Source of the DNA: Gammaproteobacteria bacterium
GTDB lineage: Bacteria > Pseudomonadota > Gammaproteobacteria > Steroidobacterales > Woeseiaceae
Direction: 5' to 3'
DNA length: 64,000 nucleotides
NCBI GenBank assembly: GCA_029861535.1
Contig: JAOTZC010000001.1
Location: forward strand, 124,001-188,000
The stretch's first letter is position 1. Every line of letters begins with the position of its first letter. A program made the position numbers and the translations under genes. The notes beneath the pieces were generated by a model. That model did not search any database, was not told the DNA's origin, and saw only the letters and a program-made list of their open reading frames with translations. This document shows positions 13,302 to 58,078 of the stretch, in pieces.

Positions 13302-14357
13302 TTATCTGTAACGCTTCAGGATCTTTCGCAGTTCGTCCGCACCGGGATGTAAGGATTCGAGTGGCAAGCGTGCCAGCGGCGTATCAACGTTTCCCATCAG
13401 ATCATGCATTTCCTTGCGCGACTCATCCAGATACAGCAATCCAGTTGTGATCTCGCCTCTATTGAAGTGATCGCGCAAGTATTTGAAACTGGATGCCCTA
13501 CTTGTCGGATCATAGCGTTTGTCCATTTTGCGCAACACGATCTTGCTACCGTCGTGCAGCTCGACCGGCATCGCTTCGCCGTCGTCATACGCCACCTTTA
13601 ATTCTTCCGCCGGCGGCACGTAATCCATATCCACAACTTGATGATAAAACTGGCGCGTGTGCGCATAACTCTTGGTTGATCCTTCATGATCGTTAAACGT
13701 AACGCACGGACTGATGACATCAACCAGCGCGAATCCGTCATGCAATAGCGCGCCCTGAATTAACGGCACGAGTTGTTCTTTGTCACCGGAAAAACTTCGG
13801 GCGATATACGTGGCACCGAGGCTCAGCGCGGTACTGACCGAGTCGATCGGTTCTTGCTGGTTCGCCATGCCTTTCTTTGGCTTGCTACCAATGTCCGCCG
13901 ATGCGGAAAACTGACCTTTGGTCAGCCCGTACACGCCATTGTTCTCAATGATGTAACACATGTTGAGATTGCGCCGGATCGCATGCACGAACTGACCAAG
14001 ACCAATCGACAATGAATCGCCATCGCCGGAGACGCCGATGTACGTCAGGTCGCGATTTGCAGCGTTGGCTCCAGTTGTCACCGATGGCATGCGTCCGTGA
14101 ACCGCGTTAAAACCATGTGACTGACTGACAAAATAGGCCGGCGTTTTCGACGAGCAACCGATGCCACTCATCTTTGCCAAATTGTGCGGCTCGATATTCA
14201 ATTCAAAAACAGCCTGGATAATGGCCGTCGTTACCGAATCATGTCCGCATCCTGCGCACAGTGTTGACACCGTACCTTCGTAATCACGCGATGTCAGGCC
14301 GAGTTTATTCCGCGGCAAACCCGGGTGCGCGACTTTTGGCTTAGCGATATACGTCAT
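13302..14357 (-). CDS. 2-oxoacid:acceptor (ferredoxin) oxidoreductase subunit beta
   Basis: TLCAGCGHDSVTTAIIQAVFELNIEPHNLAKMSGIGCSSKTPAYF (TPP-binding subunit). Confidence 0.93.
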   Translation of the reverse strand: MTYIAKPKVAHPGLPRNKLGLTSRDYEGTVSTLCAGCGHDSVTTAIIQAVFELNIEPHNLAKMSGIGCSSKTPAYFVSQSHGFNAVHGRMPSVTTGANAANRDLTYIGVSGDGDSLSIGLGQFVHAIRRNLNMCYIIENNGVYGLTKGQFSASADIGSKPKKGMANQQEPIDSVSTALSLGATYIARSFSGDKEQLVPLIQGALLHDGFALVDVISPCVTFNDHEGSTKSYAHTRQFYHQVVDMDYVPPAEELKVAYDDGEAMPVELHDGSKIVLRKMDKRYDPTSRASSFKYLRDHFNRGEITTGLLYLDESRKEMHDLMGNVDTPLARLPLESLHPGADELRKILKRYR

Positions 14358-16156
14358 GCGGCACGCCCCTTAGATATTTCTGCCAGCACACCGTCAACGA
14401 CAAAGCCGGCATTTATCGGCACACCGTTATAGTGCAGCAACGAGATCAACTTGGACTGATCGGCCTCAATATCGAGTATCAGAAGGCTACGGAGCTGAGC
14501 ATCACGATTCTGCTCGACGACGTAAATGACTTCGTGATCCTCGATGAATTGTCGGATTTCGTCACTGAACGGAAATGCCTTGGCGCGGCAGTAGTTGAGG
14601 TTTACGTTCTGCTCACGCAGCCGGTCAAGCGCTTCGACACAAGCCGCGTGACCGCTACCAATTGTCAGTAATCCCGCTTTGTTGAATTTCGAATATTCGA
14701 TGTCCGGTTTCGGCAGTGTTTTACGTGCCGTTTCCCACTTCACCAGCAAGCGGTCGACAACGTCTTGATAGTCCACCGGGTTCTCTGTGTACCCGCCGTG
14801 TTTCGTATGCCCCGATCCACGCGTGAAATAGGATCCCTTGGGATGAACGCCCGGCAATGAGCGATACGGAATGCCATCACCGTCCACGTCGAGATAACGG
14901 TAGAAATTCTCCATGTGTTCGAGATCATCGGCACTTAAGATTTTGCCGCGATCGGGCACGTAGGACTCATCCCATTCAAACTCCGGAATCATCCAATCGT
15001 TCATGCCAATGTCCAGGTCGGACAACACCATCACTGGCGTTTGCAGTCGCTCCGCAATGTCGAACGACTGCACGGCCATATGAAAACACTCGTATGGGTC
15101 GGCCGGAAAAAGCAATACGTGCCTTGTATCACCGTGCGACGCATATGCGCAGCTGAGAATGTCCGACTGCTGCGTGCGTGTCGGCATGCCGGTGGATGGA
15201 CCTGTCCGCTGCACGTCGAAAATGACCGCTGGAATCTCGGCGTAATAAGCATAGCCGATGAACTCGTTCATGAGCGAAATGCCAGGGCCGCTGGTTGGTG
15301 TGAATGACCGTGCACCGTTCCAGCTTGCGCCGAGAACCATACCAATCGCCGCGAGCTCATCTTCGGCCTGGATAATGCAATAGGTGCGTTTGCCGGTCTT
15401 AGGTTCAACGCGGTATTTCCCGCAGAAATTCCGAAATGCATCCATTAGCGATGTGGATGGCGTGATCGGATACCATGCGCCGACGGTCGCGCCGGCGTAC
15501 ATGCAACCGAGACCCGCGGCCGTATTGCCGTCGATAACGATATGTCCTTTGGTCTTGTCCATCGCCGCAACTTTTTTCGGCAGCGGGCAGATAAAATTTT
15601 CGATTGCATAATCATAACCTAGCCTTATCGCCTGCATGTTCGATTCGATCAGGTGTGACTTGTCAGCAAATGTCTCTTCTAGCAAAGCAGTGATAATGTC
15701 GAGATCGATCTCCAACAACGCAGCGACAACGCCGACATACGCGATGTTCTTCATCAGAATGCGCGCACGAGCGCCTTCAAAAGTTTCGTTGCACATCCGT
15801 GATAGCGGTACACCCAATACCGTAATGTCTTCACGATCGATGAGCTTACTGCGCGGCCAGGTTGAGTCGTAGATTAGCCAGCCGCCGGGCGACACGTCGC
15901 CCAAGTCTTTTACGTAAGTTTGCGCATTCATCGCGACCATTATGTCGAGTCGGCCCGAGCGCGACTGGTAGCCCTCGCCAGTCACGCGAATCTCATACCA
16001 CGTTGGCAGCCCCTGAATGTTTGACGGAAAATAGTTTTTGCCGACAACCGGGATGCCCATACGGAAAATTGCCTTGCGCAACAAGCCGTTCGCGCTGGCT
16101 GACCCGGTGCCATTGACCGTAGCGATCTTGATGACGACGTCGTTAATTGTTGCCAC
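14354..16156 (-). CDS. 2-oxoacid:acceptor oxidoreductase subunit alpha (fused gamma-alpha)
   Basis: N-terminal gamma domain (GTGSASANGLLRKAIFRMGIPVVGKNYFPSNIQGLPTWYEIRV) plus alpha domain (GNTAAGLGCMYAGATVGAWYPITPSTSLMDAF); ATGA overlap with beta. Confidence 0.93.
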   Translation of the reverse strand: MATINDVVIKIATVNGTGSASANGLLRKAIFRMGIPVVGKNYFPSNIQGLPTWYEIRVTGEGYQSRSGRLDIMVAMNAQTYVKDLGDVSPGGWLIYDSTWPRSKLIDREDITVLGVPLSRMCNETFEGARARILMKNIAYVGVVAALLEIDLDIITALLEETFADKSHLIESNMQAIRLGYDYAIENFICPLPKKVAAMDKTKGHIVIDGNTAAGLGCMYAGATVGAWYPITPSTSLMDAFRNFCGKYRVEPKTGKRTYCIIQAEDELAAIGMVLGASWNGARSFTPTSGPGISLMNEFIGYAYYAEIPAVIFDVQRTGPSTGMPTRTQQSDILSCAYASHGDTRHVLLFPADPYECFHMAVQSFDIAERLQTPVMVLSDLDIGMNDWMIPEFEWDESYVPDRGKILSADDLEHMENFYRYLDVDGDGIPYRSLPGVHPKGSYFTRGSGHTKHGGYTENPVDYQDVVDRLLVKWETARKTLPKPDIEYSKFNKAGLLTIGSGHAACVEALDRLREQNVNLNYCRAKAFPFSDEIRQFIEDHEVIYVVEQNRDAQLRSLLILDIEADQSKLISLLHYNGVPINAGFVVDGVLAEISKGRAA

Positions 16157-16170
16157 TCGAATTCCTTATC

Positions 16171-17982
16171 TCAGGCGGCGGTGATCTTTGCGGCTTTCGC
16201 ATCTTCCGCCTCGTCGGCGGCATATGACAGTAGGACCGTCGATTTTTGCATATCCCAAGCGCCCGTCGGGCAGCGTTCGGCACAAAGGCTGCAATGAACG
16301 CAGAGATCTTCGTCTTTGACCATGACACGACCCGTCTGTGGCAGGTCTCCTGACACGTATAGCGCCTGATCGCGGTTTTCAGCCGGCGCCGACAACCGAC
16401 CGCGAAGCTCATCCTCTTCGCCATTTACAGTAATCGTCAAGCAGTTGACAGGACAGATGTCGATGCACGCGTCGCATTCAATACACAGATCGGCCGCGAA
16501 CACCGTCTGTATATCGCAATTCAGGCAACGCTCGACTTCCTGGATTGTCTGTTCCACGGTAAATCCCAGCTCAACCTCGATATCGAGCTTTTTGAATCGT
16601 TCCTTCAGATCAACATGCGGCATCAGTCGGCGAGCGGCCGGATCATAATCGTTCGAATAGCTCCATTCGTGCATGCCCATTTTTTGACTGGACAGGTTTA
16701 TGCCGGCTGGCAACCTGTCATAGATGTCTTCGTCGTGGCAGTATTTATGAATAGAGATTGCGGCTTCGTGGCCGTGCGCAACAGCCCATATGATATTTAA
16801 CGGCCCAAACGCCGAGTCGCCGCCGAAAAATACACCATCGCGCGAACACATCATCGTTTGTTTATTAACGACCGGGCAGTCCCACTCGTTAAACTCGATG
16901 CCGATGTCGCGCTCAATCCATGGGAACGCATTGTCCTGACCGATTGCGAGTATCACGTCGTCGCAAGGAATGATCACTTCGTCCACCGCGGTTCCGCGAT
17001 CAATACCGCCGTTATCGTCGAACTTGTATTCCATGATGTCGAACTTCATTCCGGTAAGCTTGCCATTTTCGAGAACAAACTCTTTCGGTGAATGATTGAC
17101 GACGATTTCGACATCCTCTTCTTCCGCGTCATCGAGCTCCCAATCGGACGCCTTGAAAAAGCCGCGCGGTTTTCGCGCCATAACTTTGACCGTCTTCGCT
17201 CCCAGCCGAAGCGACGTACGGCAACAATCCATCGCGGTGTTGCCGACGCCGATAATCAGGACCTGCTCGCCGATCGTGTCGATATGTTCAAAGGCAACGG
17301 ACTCAAGCCAGTCAATACCAATGTAAATGCGATCGTTGTCGTATCGGCCGGGAATTTCCAGGTTCTTGCCGCGCGGCGCGCCGGTGCCAACGAAGACCGC
17401 ATCGAATTCCTTGCTGTCGAGTAGCTTTTTGAGGCTTTCGATGCGGTGCTCGAACTTCAGGTCCACACCCATATCGACGATGTAACTGATCTCCTCGTCG
17501 AGAACCGCCGGAGGTAGCCGGAATCTGGGAATGTTCGTTCGCATCAGACCGCCCGTCGTATCCAGGGCCTCGAATATCGTGACGTCGTAACCGAGCGGAC
17601 AAAGATCGTTCGCGACGGTGAGTGACGCGCAGCCGGCACCAATCAACGCGACTTTTTTTCCATTCTTTTTGGCGGGCGGCCGTGGCAGACGATGCGTTAT
17701 GTCATCTCGGTGATCTGCGGCCACGCGCTTGAGACGGCAAATAGCGACCGGTTTGTCCTCGACTCTGCTGCGCCGGCATGCGGGCTCACACGGTCGATCG
17801 CATACCCGACCCAGGATTCCCGGAAATACGTTTGATTGACGATTCTCGATGTAAGCGTCACTGAATCGGCCCTGTGCGATCAGGCGAATGTATTCGGGTA
17901 CGTCGGTATGGGCCGGGCAGGCCCACTGGCAGTCGACTACTTTATGAAAGTAATCGGGATTGGAAGTATCTGTGGGATTCAT
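16171..17982 (-). CDS. GltD-like NAD(P)/FAD oxidoreductase with C-terminal 2x[4Fe-4S] ferredoxin domain
   Basis: KKVALIGAGCASLTVANDLCPLGYDVTIFEALDTTGGLMRTNIPRFRLP; ferredoxin motifs CIECDACIDICPVNC and CVHCSLCAERCPTGAW. Confidence 0.92.
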   Translation of the reverse strand: MNPTDTSNPDYFHKVVDCQWACPAHTDVPEYIRLIAQGRFSDAYIENRQSNVFPGILGRVCDRPCEPACRRSRVEDKPVAICRLKRVAADHRDDITHRLPRPPAKKNGKKVALIGAGCASLTVANDLCPLGYDVTIFEALDTTGGLMRTNIPRFRLPPAVLDEEISYIVDMGVDLKFEHRIESLKKLLDSKEFDAVFVGTGAPRGKNLEIPGRYDNDRIYIGIDWLESVAFEHIDTIGEQVLIIGVGNTAMDCCRTSLRLGAKTVKVMARKPRGFFKASDWELDDAEEEDVEIVVNHSPKEFVLENGKLTGMKFDIMEYKFDDNGGIDRGTAVDEVIIPCDDVILAIGQDNAFPWIERDIGIEFNEWDCPVVNKQTMMCSRDGVFFGGDSAFGPLNIIWAVAHGHEAAISIHKYCHDEDIYDRLPAGINLSSQKMGMHEWSYSNDYDPAARRLMPHVDLKERFKKLDIEVELGFTVEQTIQEVERCLNCDIQTVFAADLCIECDACIDICPVNCLTITVNGEEDELRGRLSAPAENRDQALYVSGDLPQTGRVMVKDEDLCVHCSLCAERCPTGAWDMQKSTVLLSYAADEAEDAKAAKITAA

Positions 17983-50778: not shown

Positions 50779-50924
50779 GTCCGGGCGAATGAATGTGCCC
50801 AAATCGGCCGTTTGGACCGGCTGGAAGTGACCCAGTCCGGACAGTTTGTGTCGATGTCTGTAAATAATAGGTTGAGCGACTCGTCCGGTACCACTAAAAT
50901 CACTTGGCTAACCGGCATTCATAC

Positions 50925-52409
50925 ATGAATTATCCCGTACAGAAGAAAAAGATCGGAATCAGTGGCCTCGCCGCCTATGTGCCGCCGTACCGAGTCTGGC
51001 TCGAGGACTGGTGCGACTGGACCGGCAACCAATGGCCAAAGATCCGCGAGGTTGTCGGTCGCAGCTTTCGCGTGCGCGGTCCGGATCAAAGCGTCTACAC
51101 GATGGCGGCATCGTCTGTAATACGGCTGATTGACCAGTACGATATCGACCCGTCCAGGGTTAAGTTTTTGGGGCTTGGCACTGAATCGAGCACCGACAAC
51201 TCTGCCGGCGCGATTATTGTTAAAGGCATGGTGGACCACGCACTGGAGGCACGCGGCAAGCCGCCCATCGCACGTAGCTGCGAAGTACCTGAGTTCAAAC
51301 ACGCCTGTCTCGGTGGCGTCTATGGCATGAAAGGCGCGATTCGCCATCTGGCGCTCGATGGCGCCGGGAGTCAGGCCATCGTCGTTTGCGCCGATATCGC
51401 GGAATATGCTCGCGGTTCCAGCGGTGAGCCCACCCAAGGTGCCGGCGCCGTTGCGATGCTGCTCGAGGAGGACCCGAAGCTTGCGATCGTCGATCTCGTC
51501 GGCTCCGGCTCCGCGTCGGACTATCGAATCATGGATTTCCGCAAGCCGATGTCGCGATTCTGTGGCCAGGATCGTTCGCAGACCCATCAGGTTCAGGACT
51601 TCCCGGTATTCAATGGCAAGTATTCGACGACCTGTTATGTCGATGAAACCCTGCACGCGCTGAACGACATGTACGAAAAACGCGACCTGAACGCAATCGC
51701 TTACCTGCGTTCATTAAAGACGGTCTTTATGCATCGACCGTACCGGCGTATGCCCGAGACCGGCTGGGCTGTTTCGTATTTGTTTGCGTTGTCGAGCGGT
51801 GATGCTGAGGATCGCGCTGAACTTGCATCCTATTGCTATGACGCCGGCGTTGACCCGCACGATGTACGTGACGAAATGCTTGGTAAACCCGCGGTTGCAA
51901 CGCTGGCCGATCCCGAGCGCTTGAACTACGAGGCCTACCCACTAACGATGGCGGCGCTGCGTGCATTCCGAGCATCTCGTCGACACCGGCGTGAGATTCT
52001 CGACAAGCTTGCGATTGGTAGCGACACAATGCTCGACCTCGGCAACCTCTACACGGCAGCACTACCGGCCTGGCTGGCTGCCGGTTTCGAACAGGCACGT
52101 GACGAAGGCTCGCTGACCACCGGCGAGGAAGTGCTGACACTTGGCTACGGTAGCGGCGACGCGGCTGAAGTAATTCCGTTTTTTATCGCCGACAGTTGGC
52201 GCGAAGCGACAGCCAAGATTGGCTTCGCGGATGCAATGCGTCTGACGCTCGACCTCAATCGCGAGCAGTACGTGGCGCTGCATGACGGAAATCGCGTCAG
52301 CGGTCTCGGCTACATACCACGGAACGAATTCGTCATTGACCGCGTCGGCCGCAGCGACGAACGGCATTTCACAGACCTCGGTATCGAGTACTACCGCTAC
52401 ATCGCGTAG
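50925..52409 (+). CDS. mvaS: Hydroxymethylglutaryl-CoA synthase
   Basis: IGISGLAAYVPPYRV, LGLGTESSTDNSAG, FKHACLGGVYGMKGAI (catalytic Cys region), YARGSSGEPTQGAGAVAMLLE. Confidence 0.93.
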   Translation: MNYPVQKKKIGISGLAAYVPPYRVWLEDWCDWTGNQWPKIREVVGRSFRVRGPDQSVYTMAASSVIRLIDQYDIDPSRVKFLGLGTESSTDNSAGAIIVKGMVDHALEARGKPPIARSCEVPEFKHACLGGVYGMKGAIRHLALDGAGSQAIVVCADIAEYARGSSGEPTQGAGAVAMLLEEDPKLAIVDLVGSGSASDYRIMDFRKPMSRFCGQDRSQTHQVQDFPVFNGKYSTTCYVDETLHALNDMYEKRDLNAIAYLRSLKTVFMHRPYRRMPETGWAVSYLFALSSGDAEDRAELASYCYDAGVDPHDVRDEMLGKPAVATLADPERLNYEAYPLTMAALRAFRASRRHRREILDKLAIGSDTMLDLGNLYTAALPAWLAAGFEQARDEGSLTTGEEVLTLGYGSGDAAEVIPFFIADSWREATAKIGFADAMRLTLDLNREQYVALHDGNRVSGLGYIPRNEFVIDRVGRSDERHFTDLGIEYYRYIA

Positions 52410-52969
52410 CGCGACAATAAGTCTGCATGCTGCTCGCACAGCGTGCGCCATTCCATCCTAAACCACGGCGTAAATTGCTCTGGCCGTTCATCGAGTTCCG
52501 CATCGAGTTCTCTGCTCGACACGAAGCGAATGCGTTGAATCTCATGTTCATTCGGTTTGATGTCACCAAGCACCTTTCCTACGAAGACATGGCATAACTC
52601 GTTTTCTGATCCTGATTCGTCGAAGCGGGCGTGATAGCTGAACTTGTAGACATACTCGAGTTGCGCATTTGCATTGAGTTCGTCTCGAAGGCGGCGCTCC
52701 GTCGCCGCTTGCATATCTTCGCCGCGGCGCGGGTGACTGCAGCAGCTGTTCGACCAGTATTCTGGCCACAGCCGCTTGCTGCCGGCGCGTTGTTGCAACA
52801 ACATATTGCCATCATCGTTGAACAGAAAAACCGAAAAAGCACGATGAAGGACGCCATCGCCATTGTGACATTCGGCTTTCGACAAATGTCCGGTCTCGTT
52901 GTCATTCTCGTCGACAAGAATTAACTCCTCGACATCCGACGATACGATTCTGTGTGCGTTATTCAACAC
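52397..52969 (-). CDS. idi: Isopentenyl-diphosphate delta-isomerase type 1 (Nudix)
   Basis: EELILVDENDNETGHLSKAECHNGDGVLHRAFSVFLFNDDGNMLLQQRAGSKRLWPEYWSNSCCSHPRRGED. Confidence 0.96.
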   Translation of the reverse strand: MLNNAHRIVSSDVEELILVDENDNETGHLSKAECHNGDGVLHRAFSVFLFNDDGNMLLQQRAGSKRLWPEYWSNSCCSHPRRGEDMQAATERRLRDELNANAQLEYVYKFSYHARFDESGSENELCHVFVGKVLGDIKPNEHEIQRIRFVSSRELDAELDERPEQFTPWFRMEWRTLCEQHADLLSRYAM

Positions 52970-55175
52970 CTTGGTCCTCGTTGCCCTGCGCTGCTATGGT
53001 CATGAATCCCGCGGCTTCAAGCGCCGACGACACGACGGCTTCTCGGCCCGGGCACAGCGCGACAATGGATCCACCACCGCCCGCGCCCGTGAGCTTTGCA
53101 CCTAGCGCACCAGCCGCCCGGGCGATAGATACCATGTGCTCGAGCTCTGGCGTAGATACCTGAATCGCGTTTAGCAACCCGTGGCAAATGTTCATCAGCC
53201 CACCAAGCCGCTCGTAATCCGCCGCTGCCAGCGCGTCGGCGCCCGCAATAGTCAGCGCGTCAATCTGCTCAAACAGCGCATCGTATTGTTCTGTGGCCGC
53301 GTCGCGACGCGCACGAACCCCGGCCACCTGTTCAAGTGTGGATCCCGGACTATTGCTGCAAGCCACAACAACTGGCGGCGCTTCGAGCAATTCGATTGTT
53401 GTAATTTCAGGCGGCTCGTTACGACGATACAAGAATGGCGTAGCGAAGGTTGCTACCGTATTGTCCACGCCAGACGGCGTTCCATGTGCGAGTTTTTCGC
53501 ACTCAAACGCGATGCTGTTAACACGATCGTTGTCCAAATCAATATCGAACGCCTTACCGAGCGCGCGCGTGATCGCAACCGCGAGCGCCGCCGATGAGCC
53601 CAGACCCATTGCACGCGGCAAAGTCGTGGCAACACTCAGATTGAACGCACGATCAGCGACGCCAAGTTCGCGTGCGATTTGCAACACCGCGTCACCAATA
53701 TCGCTACCGGCTTCGATGCTCTTATCGACACCCCATGCTGGAATCGAAATAGTCGGTGAGTCACTCACCTTGGCGCTTGCGGTTACCGCGTTCTTGATCG
53801 GCATTGCGAGCGCATGCGCACCGTAAACGACAGCATGCTCGCCCAACAGGATTAGCTTCCCCGCAGCAGTGACACCGTTTGGCGTAATTTCGAGCGCACG
53901 CTTTCCGATGAGAATCTCACGTGCTTTCCAGTCTTTGATTTCGCCGCTTGCAACGAGTTCTGCGACCACGTCGTCGAATAATTTGTCCGGGACGCCGGCC
54001 CCCGCAGCAACGCTGCGGGCATGCAGACGCATGTGTCCTTGTTGAATGCCGCTAGTCGAGAGCGCACGGATCGCCGCAAAATTCTGCGCGAGACCAACCG
54101 CGGCCATCAATTCAGCCAGTTCGCGCGCCGACTCGACCCCACATATTCTCAAGCCAAGTGCCGCCGTGGCGTTAGCCTCGCGCGTGCCGCCGACGATGCC
54201 GACCTTCAACGGTATGCGAATCTCGCCTGCAAGATCACCGGTATCGCTCACCGACCAGCACGTCAGCGGCGAATACGCTCCGCCGACCGCCGCGTAAGCG
54301 TGTGCACCGGCCTCGATTGCACGCCAATCATTGCCAGTTGCAACTGCCAACGGATCAATGCCGTTCATAATGCCCTTGTTGTGCGTTGCCGCCCGGTACG
54401 GATCTGCGCACGCGATATCGTTCGCCAAGACGATGGCATCTCGAGCGCGCTTCGCCGCGTCTTCGTCCTCACCGAGATCTTTGAGCCCATAGTTAACTTT
54501 CGCGGTCACTAAAGAACGGTCTGCGAGGTTCGACAGGATTCGCATCGCGATGTTGCCGTTGCAAAGCTCCGCTAGCTGCGGCGCGATCGCTTCGCAAATC
54601 GTGTTGACCAGGTTCGCACCCATCGCGTTGCCGGTATCGACGAGCAAATGGACGACGAGTGAATTGCGACCATCTTCGAGTAACAGATTGCGAGACTCGA
54701 TATCACGGACCCCACCGCCACGACGCACGAGTCGCGGATGAACATCGTTAGCAGCGGCCAACAATGCTTGCTTCGCATTGTTTATCGCATCGATCGCCGC
54801 ATCGACATCGCTGATTCCAGTCAAATGTACCTGTCCAGCCAGCAGAGATTCGTCGCAGGCCGAATCGAATCCGCCCGCTGAACGCGCAAGCAGCGCAGAC
54901 GCGCTGAGCGCGGCGACGATTGAAGGTTCCTCGACGACCAACGGCACTAAGTAGTCGCGATCGTTGACACGAAAATTCGGTACGACGGCGAGCGGTAGGC
55001 CGAACGTCGCTATGACATTTTCGATAATCTTATCGCCAGCGGTCACAGGTAAAATCACTCGACCGTTCTTCAGAGCGTCGGCATCCGTCGACGACAACCA
55101 GCCGCGGCGCTCGAGCTCAGCAATACGTTCACCAACCGAAAGTCGATAGAAGCCCGAAATGCGAGAATCGCTCAC
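52959..55175 (-). CDS. Bifunctional class II HMG-CoA reductase-mevalonate kinase fusion
   Basis: aa 1-~430 HMGR with E83, K267 (HNKGIMNG), D283 (GNDWRAIEAGAHAYA), H381 (GHMRLHARSVA); aa ~433-738 GHMP mevalonate kinase (GKLILLGEHAVVYG, PRAMGLGSSAA, HGTPSGVDN, GALGAKLTGAGGGGSIVAL). Confidence 0.94.
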   Translation of the reverse strand: MSDSRISGFYRLSVGERIAELERRGWLSSTDADALKNGRVILPVTAGDKIIENVIATFGLPLAVVPNFRVNDRDYLVPLVVEEPSIVAALSASALLARSAGGFDSACDESLLAGQVHLTGISDVDAAIDAINNAKQALLAAANDVHPRLVRRGGGVRDIESRNLLLEDGRNSLVVHLLVDTGNAMGANLVNTICEAIAPQLAELCNGNIAMRILSNLADRSLVTAKVNYGLKDLGEDEDAAKRARDAIVLANDIACADPYRAATHNKGIMNGIDPLAVATGNDWRAIEAGAHAYAAVGGAYSPLTCWSVSDTGDLAGEIRIPLKVGIVGGTREANATAALGLRICGVESARELAELMAAVGLAQNFAAIRALSTSGIQQGHMRLHARSVAAGAGVPDKLFDDVVAELVASGEIKDWKAREILIGKRALEITPNGVTAAGKLILLGEHAVVYGAHALAMPIKNAVTASAKVSDSPTISIPAWGVDKSIEAGSDIGDAVLQIARELGVADRAFNLSVATTLPRAMGLGSSAALAVAITRALGKAFDIDLDNDRVNSIAFECEKLAHGTPSGVDNTVATFATPFLYRRNEPPEITTIELLEAPPVVVACSNSPGSTLEQVAGVRARRDAATEQYDALFEQIDALTIAGADALAAADYERLGGLMNICHGLLNAIQVSTPELEHMVSIARAAGALGAKLTGAGGGGSIVALCPGREAVVSSALEAAGFMTIAAQGNEDQGVE

Positions 55176-56119
55176 GCTCCGGCCCCATTCAGAACAACGC
55201 CGATATCGTCGATTGTCATGTCGAGCTGCCGAAAGCCAAAATCCCCGACCTTATGTGCGAATGCCTTGACAGCCTGTTTTTCTGTTCCGAGTACGATACC
55301 GATATCGCCGCCACCCGCACCACAAGGCTTGTAGACGATATTTGCCGACATTTTCTTCTCTGCAAGTGCATCATGACCAGCATCGAATATGCCGAGACCA
55401 TGGTCAATATCGAATTGCCGTAGCACCGGCACATAGTCACGATATTCGCCGACAATCGCAGCGGCATCGCCCGAGATCCAGGCTTCTGCGACGTTTGCCG
55501 CAACTTCGCTCAGCGCGCCGTTGCTGCCGCGCGTTTTTGAATCCGGCAGGCGACGAAGTTTCTCAGACGTGTTCGCGGGCACACCGCTCCACAACAACTG
55601 GTAATGGAGTCCGTCTGGCCATGCGAGCGACCGCGGCGTTTCGCCGACACAATACTCGACGAGCCCGCCGACGATACTTGTCGCAACATCGACGCCACTA
55701 CCGACACCTTGCTGAAACGCATGATGTGCTTTTTGAGAGCACCGAAATAGTTCAAGCCCGCTGATTTCGCCCCTTGCGCTCGCCGCCAATGCGCATACCA
55801 ATCCGACCGTGAGCGCTGCACTTGAGCCGATGCCAAATTTGATACCGGACGTCGAGTCCGCAAATGCACGGGTATCGAGGAGCACCGTGCCACGCCAACG
55901 ATGGATCGCAAGTGCGTCGCATGCGCACTCGAATATCCGCGTATCCTTATCGCCGGCCAATCCAATGGATTGGATGGACAAGTCGTCAGCCGCGGCAAGC
56001 GTAATGACCGCACGACGATTGACCGCCATTGACACAGCGGGCGCTCCATCAAGCACGGCGTATTCGCCCGATAGGATGACCTTACCTGGCGCGCTGCTCT
56101 TGATTGAATTCATACGCAA
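55172..56119 (-). CDS. Phosphomevalonate kinase (GHMP family)
   Basis: SSAPGKVILSGEYAVLDGAPAVSMAVNRRA, KFGIGSSAALTVGLV, GVGSGVDVATSIVGGLVEY, KPCGAGGGDIGIVLG. Confidence 0.9.
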   Translation of the reverse strand: MRMNSIKSSAPGKVILSGEYAVLDGAPAVSMAVNRRAVITLAAADDLSIQSIGLAGDKDTRIFECACDALAIHRWRGTVLLDTRAFADSTSGIKFGIGSSAALTVGLVCALAASARGEISGLELFRCSQKAHHAFQQGVGSGVDVATSIVGGLVEYCVGETPRSLAWPDGLHYQLLWSGVPANTSEKLRRLPDSKTRGSNGALSEVAANVAEAWISGDAAAIVGEYRDYVPVLRQFDIDHGLGIFDAGHDALAEKKMSANIVYKPCGAGGGDIGIVLGTEKQAVKAFAHKVGDFGFRQLDMTIDDIGVVLNGAGA

Positions 56120-57072
56120 CCAGTCAACTTAGCGCCTGCCCCAAGCTCACTTACGATGACGCGGCCAACGCCGCTTGTAGATTGCAGCGCATCGCAAACG
56201 CGAGACTCGTCGTGTGCCAGACAGATTGCTTTGACTTGCGGCCCCGCATCGATTGTAAAAAACACTCCGACGCCTTGCGTACGCAATTCGCGTACCGTTT
56301 GCAGACATTCCAAGGTTGCGGCGTTCCAGTATACGATCGGCGGCCGAGATGCCCACATGACCGAATGCATCTTTAGACAATTGTGCTCGGCGATCGCGGC
56401 GAGCTTGCCAAAATCCCGTTCCCGTATCGCTGCTCGCGCGACGTCGAGATCGTGCGTCTGGTCATCGACCCAACGGCCGTAGAACGGCGACGTCTTGCGA
56501 CTGATTTCCATTGCCTCCCCAGAACTTACCGGCTTCGGTCCTGCGGAAGTTACTGCGATAACGATCCTGAGCGGCCAGTCGCTGGAATCGAGCAATGTTT
56601 CGACCGCAACGCTATCGCCATTGTTTTCAAGTTCTGCGAAACCACCATAAAGAGATCGCGCAGCCGAACCTGATTCCAGGCCGGCAAGGCTCGCAAGCTC
56701 CGCCGTCGATCGATGTTGTCCCGCTGCAGCCGAGGCCGCAACCACTAGAGCCGCGAAAGCTGATGCCGACGACGCCAGCCCAGCGGCCACCGGAAAATTG
56801 CAATGACTGTCCACGCGCGCAGGATCACGACCCTCGCCGGCGACTGCGCTTAAGCAGCGACTGATTCGCGGCAACATCTGCTGGTCAATTTCACCATTGA
56901 CAGTGAGTACGTCGTCCTTGAGTTTGGAATCGAACTTGACGTTCATCTCCGTGTAAAGGTCCGCAAGCGTAATCGATATGGAGCCAACCGCCGGCAAGTT
57001 CAGTGTCCTGTCGCGTTTTCCCCAATATTTGATCAAGGCGATATTAGGTTGTGCTCTCGCCGTTGCCTGCAT
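56110..57072 (-). CDS. mvaD: Diphosphomevalonate decarboxylase
   Basis: QPNIALIKYWGKRDRTLNLPAVGSISITL, NFPVAAGLASSASAFAALV, FFTIDAGPQVKAICL. Confidence 0.95.
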   Translation of the reverse strand: MQATARAQPNIALIKYWGKRDRTLNLPAVGSISITLADLYTEMNVKFDSKLKDDVLTVNGEIDQQMLPRISRCLSAVAGEGRDPARVDSHCNFPVAAGLASSASAFAALVVAASAAAGQHRSTAELASLAGLESGSAARSLYGGFAELENNGDSVAVETLLDSSDWPLRIVIAVTSAGPKPVSSGEAMEISRKTSPFYGRWVDDQTHDLDVARAAIRERDFGKLAAIAEHNCLKMHSVMWASRPPIVYWNAATLECLQTVRELRTQGVGVFFTIDAGPQVKAICLAHDESRVCDALQSTSGVGRVIVSELGAGAKLTGCV

Positions 57073-57148
57073 GTTCTATCCCGGGGGCCAAGCGTTCAAA
57101 AGGACGCGAATTATAGCCCAGTCGGGTGCGAGCACTGCCGGTCAAATC

Positions 57149-58078
57149 GTGTACGCTATTGCCCCCGATCGAGCTCAAGAGACCGCCTTGCCCGCTAATT
57201 TCAAAGACCGCCTGGACTATTATCTGGACCGAGTGACGTGCAAGCTCGATGCATGTTTGCCAAGCGCTAACGAAAATCCGAAACGCTTGCACGAGGCAAT
57301 GCGATACGCCGTTTTCAATGGTGGCAAACGCATTCGACCGATGTTGGTCTATGCCGCCGGTGAGTGTGTCGGCGTCGCCGAGGAACTCCTCGATGCGCCG
57401 GCTGCGGCCATCGAGCTGATCCACGCATTTTCGTTGGTCCACGACGACCTGCCGTCGATGGATGACGATGATCTACGGCGAGGCAAACCGACGCTGCATG
57501 TAGCGTACGATGAAGCGACTGCGATCCTCGCGGCCGACGCGCTGCAACCGTTGGCGTTTTCTGTGTTGGCGGACATAGACGATGTTACTGCCGACGTCCG
57601 TACCAGCCTGGTCCGGCTCGTTGCCGACGCCTGCGGATCGATCGGCATGACTGGTGGCCAGTCGATCGATCTCGCTGCCGAAGGACAAACGCTCAGCGCC
57701 GACGAACTAGAACATATGTATGTACTGAAGACCGGCGCGCTGATTCACGCATCGGTGATGTCCGCATGCCTGCTAAAGCCTGACACACCGGATCCACAAC
57801 AACGCGCGCTCGACAGGTTTTCTCGCGCCGTCGGCATCGCGTTTCAGATTCGCGATGACCTGCTCGACATCGAAGGTGAAACCATTATTATCGGCAAACC
57901 CGCCGGTTCAGATCTTGGGCTCAGGAAAGCAACCTATCCCACGCTTCTCGGGACCGAAGCATCGCTGAAGCGTTGCGACGAATTGATTGCCGACGCTTTT
58001 CAATACCTCGAAGTCGTCGGCGATGCTGCCGAACCACTTCGCTGGCTCGCGCGTTACATAGTCCAGCGAAACAACTGA
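57149..58078 (+). CDS. ispA: Polyprenyl (farnesyl/geranylgeranyl) diphosphate synthase; start GTG 57149 or TTG 57188
   Basis: GGKRIRPMLVYAAGE, LIHAFSLVHDDLPSMDDDDLRRGKPTLH (first Asp-rich motif), FQIRDDLLDIEG (second). Confidence 0.93.
   Translation: MYAIAPDRAQETALPANFKDRLDYYLDRVTCKLDACLPSANENPKRLHEAMRYAVFNGGKRIRPMLVYAAGECVGVAEELLDAPAAAIELIHAFSLVHDDLPSMDDDDLRRGKPTLHVAYDEATAILAADALQPLAFSVLADIDDVTADVRTSLVRLVADACGSIGMTGGQSIDLAAEGQTLSADELEHMYVLKTGALIHASVMSACLLKPDTPDPQQRALDRFSRAVGIAFQIRDDLLDIEGETIIIGKPAGSDLGLRKATYPTLLGTEASLKRCDELIADAFQYLEVVGDAAEPLRWLARYIVQRNN

Follow-up and report, generated by a model that had tools for sequence, protein, structure and literature searches.

On the minus strand of the window (the whole 64,000-nucleotide stretch of Woeseiaceae DNA that we analyzed), a single gene encodes a class II HMG-CoA reductase (HMGR) followed by a GHMP mevalonate kinase (MvK). 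The gene, its parts and its neighbors are as follows.

56978..58078, plus strand: farnesyl-diphosphate synthase (NF045485, 329 bits, cut-off 275)
56110..57072, minus strand: diphosphomevalonate decarboxylase MvaD (TIGR01240, 259 bits, cut-off 171), with a 10-nt overlap with the PMK-like gene
55172..56119, minus strand: GHMP kinase, probable phosphomevalonate kinase (PMK-like), its end sharing 4 nt with the start (GTG) of the fusion
52959..55175, minus strand: HMGR-MvK fusion gene, 738 aa, GTG start, stop counted in
53895..55175, minus strand: class II HMGR part, aa 1–427, with catalytic Glu83, Lys267, Asp283 and His381
54720..54740, minus strand: cofactor-helix motif, aa 146–152, HPRLVRR, whose first (His) and seventh (Arg) residues are NADPH-type
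53895..54047, minus strand: C-terminal three-helix flap of HMGR, aa 377–427, carrying His381 (AlphaFold2 model and 1QAX alignment)
53874..53894, minus strand: linker, aa 428–434, about 7 residues from flap helix 3 to the first kinase strand (435)
52962..53873, minus strand: mevalonate kinase part, aa 435–738, with Lys440, Glu446-His447, Ser528, Glu560, Asp571 and Lys694
52397..52969, minus strand: type 1 isopentenyl-diphosphate isomerase Idi (TIGR02150, 160 bits, cut-off 106), with an 11-nt overlap with the fusion end
50904..52409, plus strand: divergent HMG-CoA synthase homologue (HMG_CoA_synt_N/C), convergent with the operon

One Reading Frame Encodes Both Enzymes

The frame opens with GTG at 55175 and closes with a stop codon at 52961–52959. 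It contains no internal stops, and stops are numerous on the opposite (plus) strand of the same stretch. The original prediction of an uninterrupted 738-aa frame at 52959–55175 was borne out, on a strand that it had left unstated. Pfam and NCBIfam scans, domain scans of the kind proposed along with that prediction, match class II HMGR and then GHMP mevalonate kinase. Both halves exceed the curated NCBIfam cut-offs (TIGR00532, class II HMGR, 370 bits vs. 260, aa 1–386; TIGR00549, mevalonate kinase, 237 bits vs. 163, aa 437–707), as expected of two complete consecutive enzymes in one polypeptide, and Pfam places HMG-CoA_red at aa 22–386 (PF00368, 312 bits) and the two GHMP kinase domains at 496–576 and 647–719.

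Alignment to the Pseudomonas mevalonii enzyme (1QAX) gives Glu83, Lys267, Asp283 and His381 identical numbers in the two proteins, as had been claimed, and these four catalytic residues are invariant in 42/42 aligned fusions. All three kinase motifs named in the original prediction are found in the kinase half (GLGSSAA at 524, HGTPSGVDN at 564 and GAKLTGAGGGG at 692); Lys440, Ser528, Glu560 and Asp571, with roles assigned by motif position, are likewise invariant in the 42 aligned fusions. The HMGR half is predicted to reduce HMG-CoA to mevalonate, and the kinase half, which shares only ~30% identity with solved MvKs, is predicted to phosphorylate mevalonate with ATP to 5-phosphomevalonate.

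We also considered an internal start that would yield a stand-alone kinase. Reading the frame revealed no ATG in codons 382–458, and the TTG at codon 444 falls within the first kinase motif, leaving no plausible candidate for a separate kinase start at the HMGR/MvK junction; the idea was dropped. After translation, proteolysis may part the two halves.

The Cofactor Motif Departs from the NADH Type

Following Miller and Kung, PMC13370337 gives Dx(V/L)xxxL as the cofactor motif of NADH-type class II HMGRs and (H/Y)xSxxxR as that of the NADPH type. The NADH-type motif occurs neither in the window's fusion (HPRLVRR) nor in the aligned fusion family, whose pattern is HPxMxxR. His146 and Arg152, each present in 41/42 aligned fusions, match the NADPH-type motif, whereas the residue at the Ser position of that motif is usually Lys, Arg or Asn. 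The proposed likeness to P. mevalonii HMGR holds at the catalytic residues but fails at the cofactor site, where HPRLVRR replaces the NADH-type sequence of that enzyme. Because the family motif is HPxMxxR rather than Dx(V/L)xxxL, NADPH is the predicted cofactor of the HMGR half, although the departure at position 3 means that use of NADPH and NADH could be mixed.

A Variable Linker Joins the Kinase to the HMGR Flap in a Structural Model

In class II HMGRs the flap moves between open and closed positions over the active site. An AlphaFold2 model of the fusion monomer (42 aligned fusions, mean pLDDT 85.5, and a pTM of 0.62 at which the domain arrangement is not firm) contains this flap, bearing the catalytic His, with helices at 377–392, 397–410 and 415–427, and the kinase appears attached to the flap that carries His381. 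Foldseek searches with the model recover P. mevalonii HMGR over ~425 residues and the mevalonate kinases of M. mazei and L. major over ~300.

The near-absence of a linker that had been claimed holds for the window (~7 residues) but not for the family, in which linkers range from very short to ~80 residues, are poorly conserved and are in some cases Pro/Ala-rich or repetitive. From the HMxLHAR motif to the first kinase motif, the distance varies between 19 and 118 residues across fusions. A Cryobacterium fusion (L043) has a linker of ~80 residues in which the five-residue unit GRESL is repeated. Since linker length varies and linker sequence is poorly conserved, the comparison leans toward a flexible tether rather than a rigid tunnel.

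Flap helices 2–3 are lost in four Woeseiaceae-type fusions (L004, G001, G032, G033). On a tree with three of these four lineages, the loss requires three changes, two of which are forced by well-supported branches; helices 2–3 were lost independently at least two times. In the loci concerned (L004; L001/L142 from G032; L141 from G001; L143 from G033) the kinase follows flap helix 1 at a distance of no more than ~20–25 residues.

Free class II HMGRs of Myxococcota (L161–L165, from G934, G912, G920, G875 and G906) also have no three-helix flap, and they end a few to ~20 residues past the catalytic-His motif. That these free enzymes can end at the same point shows helices 2–3 to be dispensable and does not imply their replacement by the kinase, which weakens flap truncation as proof of HMGR-kinase coupling.

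The Fusion Sits in a Mevalonate Pathway Operon

On the minus strand the operon runs MvaD, PMK-like kinase, fusion and Idi, with successive overlaps of 10, 4 and 11 nt. The PMK-like kinase is probably a phosphomevalonate kinase, a role suggested by its operon position: its best model, TIGR01220, scores 94 bits, below the cut-off of 166. It falls below every PMK model and, at 27–48% identity to its counterparts, is the least conserved operon member. The convergent HMG-CoA synthase homologue (501 aa) scores well below NCBIfam cut-offs and is of a type that accompanies some fusion operons. For the farnesyl-diphosphate synthase, the start of the open reading frame is probably too far upstream, with the family match beginning at ~aa 74–102. 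Elsewhere in the window, a 2-oxoacid:ferredoxin oxidoreductase pair could be read at 13302–17982 (minus strand) beside a GltD-like protein whose cysteine motifs are of the ferredoxin type.

The same MvaD-PMK-fusion-Idi order is found again in loci labeled Pseudomonadota, Calditrichota, Acidobacteriota, Planctomycetota and Nakamurella, where labels that rest on a single MAG contig (e.g., Nakamurella L016, Planctomycetota L034) may stem from binning errors.

Fusion Carriers Span Several Phyla and Show No MEP Markers

A genomic search for the same architecture, also proposed with the original prediction, recovered the one-frame fusion in several phyla. Dozens of independently assembled genomes contain one-frame homologues of 700+ aa and 45–65% identity, far more than chance could produce; in a scan with one genome per species, the fusion is present in roughly half of the 80 best loci, and among the matches listed the closest named loci are Woeseiaceae MAGs (57–61% identity). 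Carriers include Gammaproteobacteria, nearly all Calditrichota, some Myxococcota, Acidobacteriota and Planctomycetota, and, in Actinomycetota, Cryobacterium isolates. Frequencies differ widely among groups: ~10/369 Gammaproteobacteria genomes carry the fusion, as do 3/199 Acidobacteriota and 1/246 Actinomycetes genomes, the last being the Cryobacterium used as a search center. Among Calditrichota, 38/41 genomes have a match, 33 of these full-length and in one frame, and the Myxococcota matches listed include at least six one-frame fusions, with others unfused or with a stop between the parts. A plasmid search returned unfused HMGRs only and no fusion.

Among 60 related genomes, 49 carry the fusion, counted as strong matches that contig ends divide in some cases. 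Dxr was found in 9/60 and IspH in 9/60 of these relatives; the 10 genomes with either marker have no fusion, and neither marker occurs in any of the 49 fusion genomes. The missing IspH speaks against an MEP route with an unusual Dxr. One further relative (73% completeness) has neither fusion nor MEP marker. The window's own genome is 76% complete, so the absence of MEP is weak in that genome by itself and is judged from the relatives. In one relative with 100% completeness (G027), the fusion has a single further match at E ≤ 0.001, a weak GHMP hit immediately upstream, at the PMK site. The fusion thus probably belongs to the sole IPP route of its carriers, from which we infer that it would be essential in them. 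Both the wide spread of the fusion and the MEP-less state of its carriers go beyond the original prediction, which had omitted them.

A Single Origin Is Likely and Selection Acts on Both Halves

In the HMGR tree, 66 fusions group with two loci truncated at contig ends in a single clade with full SH-aLRT support, and no clean split of the fusion was seen within it. The kinase tree is in broad agreement, but its base is poorly resolved, which leaves a single origin for the fused kinase short of strict proof. Most likely, the fusion arose once and spread with the operon. Phylum-level mixing in the trees indicates lateral transfer; Cryobacterium, for example, adjoins Salinisphaera in both the HMGR and kinase trees. 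Among close pairs, dN/dS ranges from 0.016 to 0.144, with similarly low values in both halves and mostly higher values in the flap and linker; purifying selection is similar on the HMGR and kinase halves.

Virgibacillus/Oceanobacillus and some Myxococcota have an HMGR gene followed by an MvK gene, often overlapping, but these encode two polypeptides, unlike the fusion. Descent of the fusion directly from the adjacent pairs of Bacilli is unsupported: the MvKs of adjacent pairs sit on very long branches, far from the fused kinases. In four Myxococcota loci (L037, L133, L134, L136), HMGR and MvK share a frame with a single stop between them, a near-fusion of a different lineage.

Proposed Function and Alternative Explanations

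Enzymes of consecutive steps are often found fused. In the mevalonate pathway, HMGR is generally regarded as the rate-limiting step and MvK as a point of feedback control. We propose that the N-terminal class II HMGR half uses, most likely, 2 NADPH to convert HMG-CoA to mevalonate and that the C-terminal half converts mevalonate and ATP to 5-phosphomevalonate, the two being joined by a tether anchored where the HMGR flap ends. The PMK-like kinase, MvaD and Idi would lead from 5-phosphomevalonate onward to IPP and DMAPP, making the fusion the first committed part of the IPP route. The kinase would pull the reversible HMGR step forward, and the main benefits would probably be fixed 1:1 production and proximity, with no sealed tunnel. 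One frame, both domains, the catalytic residues, the operon, the lack of MEP markers and selection on both halves are observed, and the activities, cofactor and proximity benefit are predicted. It is quite likely that this is a single bifunctional biosynthetic enzyme with tethered halves on a probable sole IPP route.

A somewhat less than likely alternative is that the fusion only keeps dosage equal and helps the halves fold or stay stable together, while they work independently and their proximity is kinetically neutral. The variable linkers would suit independent halves, and Bacilli and some Myxococcota obtain the same dosage coupling from adjacent or overlapping unfused HMGR and MvK genes. 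However, one frame has been kept over great evolutionary distances, including in nearly all Calditrichota, and the fusion clade shows no clean split.

True channeling, in which mevalonate made at the HMGR site would reach the kinase site within a fixed assembly and bypass the bulk pool, appears improbable; the channeling or lowered mevalonate pool suggested in the original prediction is conjectural. The two steps are consecutive, the kinase is joined to a flap that moves over the HMGR active site, the modeled window linker is only ~7 residues long, and the four Woeseiaceae-type fusions without flap helices 2–3 have the kinase right behind the catalytic helix. Against this, linkers vary widely in length and sequence (some being long and of low complexity), in several pairs the flap and linker change more quickly than the domains, the arrangement of domains in the model (pTM 0.62) is not firm, and free HMGRs also show flap truncation. 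More doubtful still is a mechanically and spatially coupled kinase riding on the moving flap, whose opening would hand over mevalonate and part of which some lineages would have swapped for the kinase. If true, such a flap-coupled kinase would be a natural channeling enzyme for the first committed isoprenoid steps.

A catabolic, mevalonate-degrading HMGR joined to a kinase is suggested by the name of the best equivalog (TIGR00532, "degradative"), but the operon genes are biosynthetic, the carriers lack MEP markers and the NADH-type motif is absent; on these grounds we reject it as very improbable. An assembly artefact or frameshift fusing two genes has a negligible chance, since the one-frame fusion occurs in dozens of independent assemblies, including Cryobacterium and Dyella isolates, and nothing was found in its favor.

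Significance and Comparison with Known Systems

Together, these sequence comparisons indicate that the HMGR-MvK fusion is a real, old, conserved and apparently undescribed bifunctional enzyme whose function is predicted. Its parts are well known, and their joining in one chain is what appears to be undescribed: no described or tested HMGR-MvK enzyme was found among 5.39 million open-access papers, a scope within which the earlier claim that none is known to have been characterized stands and which takes in few subscription papers. Related unfused plasmid HMGRs are annotated "hydroxymethylglutaryl-CoA reductase, degradative" and the best NCBIfam model of the fusion bears the same name, so annotation as "degradative" may hide the fusion. 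With a natural HMGR-MvK enzyme, one could test directly whether the mevalonate pathway gains from proximity; the enzyme would also be a ready-made part for terpenoid engineering, and its sequence would mark mevalonate-reliant bacteria.

MvaE of Enterococcus faecalis is a bifunctional thiolase-HMGR of the mevalonate pathway (PMC13001223). Like the fusion, it is a bifunctional class II HMGR polypeptide of this pathway, but the partner of HMGR is acetoacetyl-CoA thiolase in MvaE and mevalonate kinase, the next enzyme, in the fusion. A Pfam scan found no thiolase domain in the fusion, which supports the distinction from MvaE drawn in the original prediction. The class II HMGR of P. mevalonii (1QAX) shares with the fusion its fold over ~425 residues, 46–48% identity and the catalytic residues; it is, however, stand-alone and catabolic with an NADH-type helix, whereas the fusion bears a kinase, lies in a biosynthetic operon and has an NADPH-like motif. 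Among solved structures, the closest relatives of the kinase half, all at ~30% identity, include the MvK of Methanosarcina mazei (4HAC, 6MDE), another archaeal MvK and a Leishmania MvK; the M. mazei enzyme stands alone, whereas the kinase described here is fused to HMGR.
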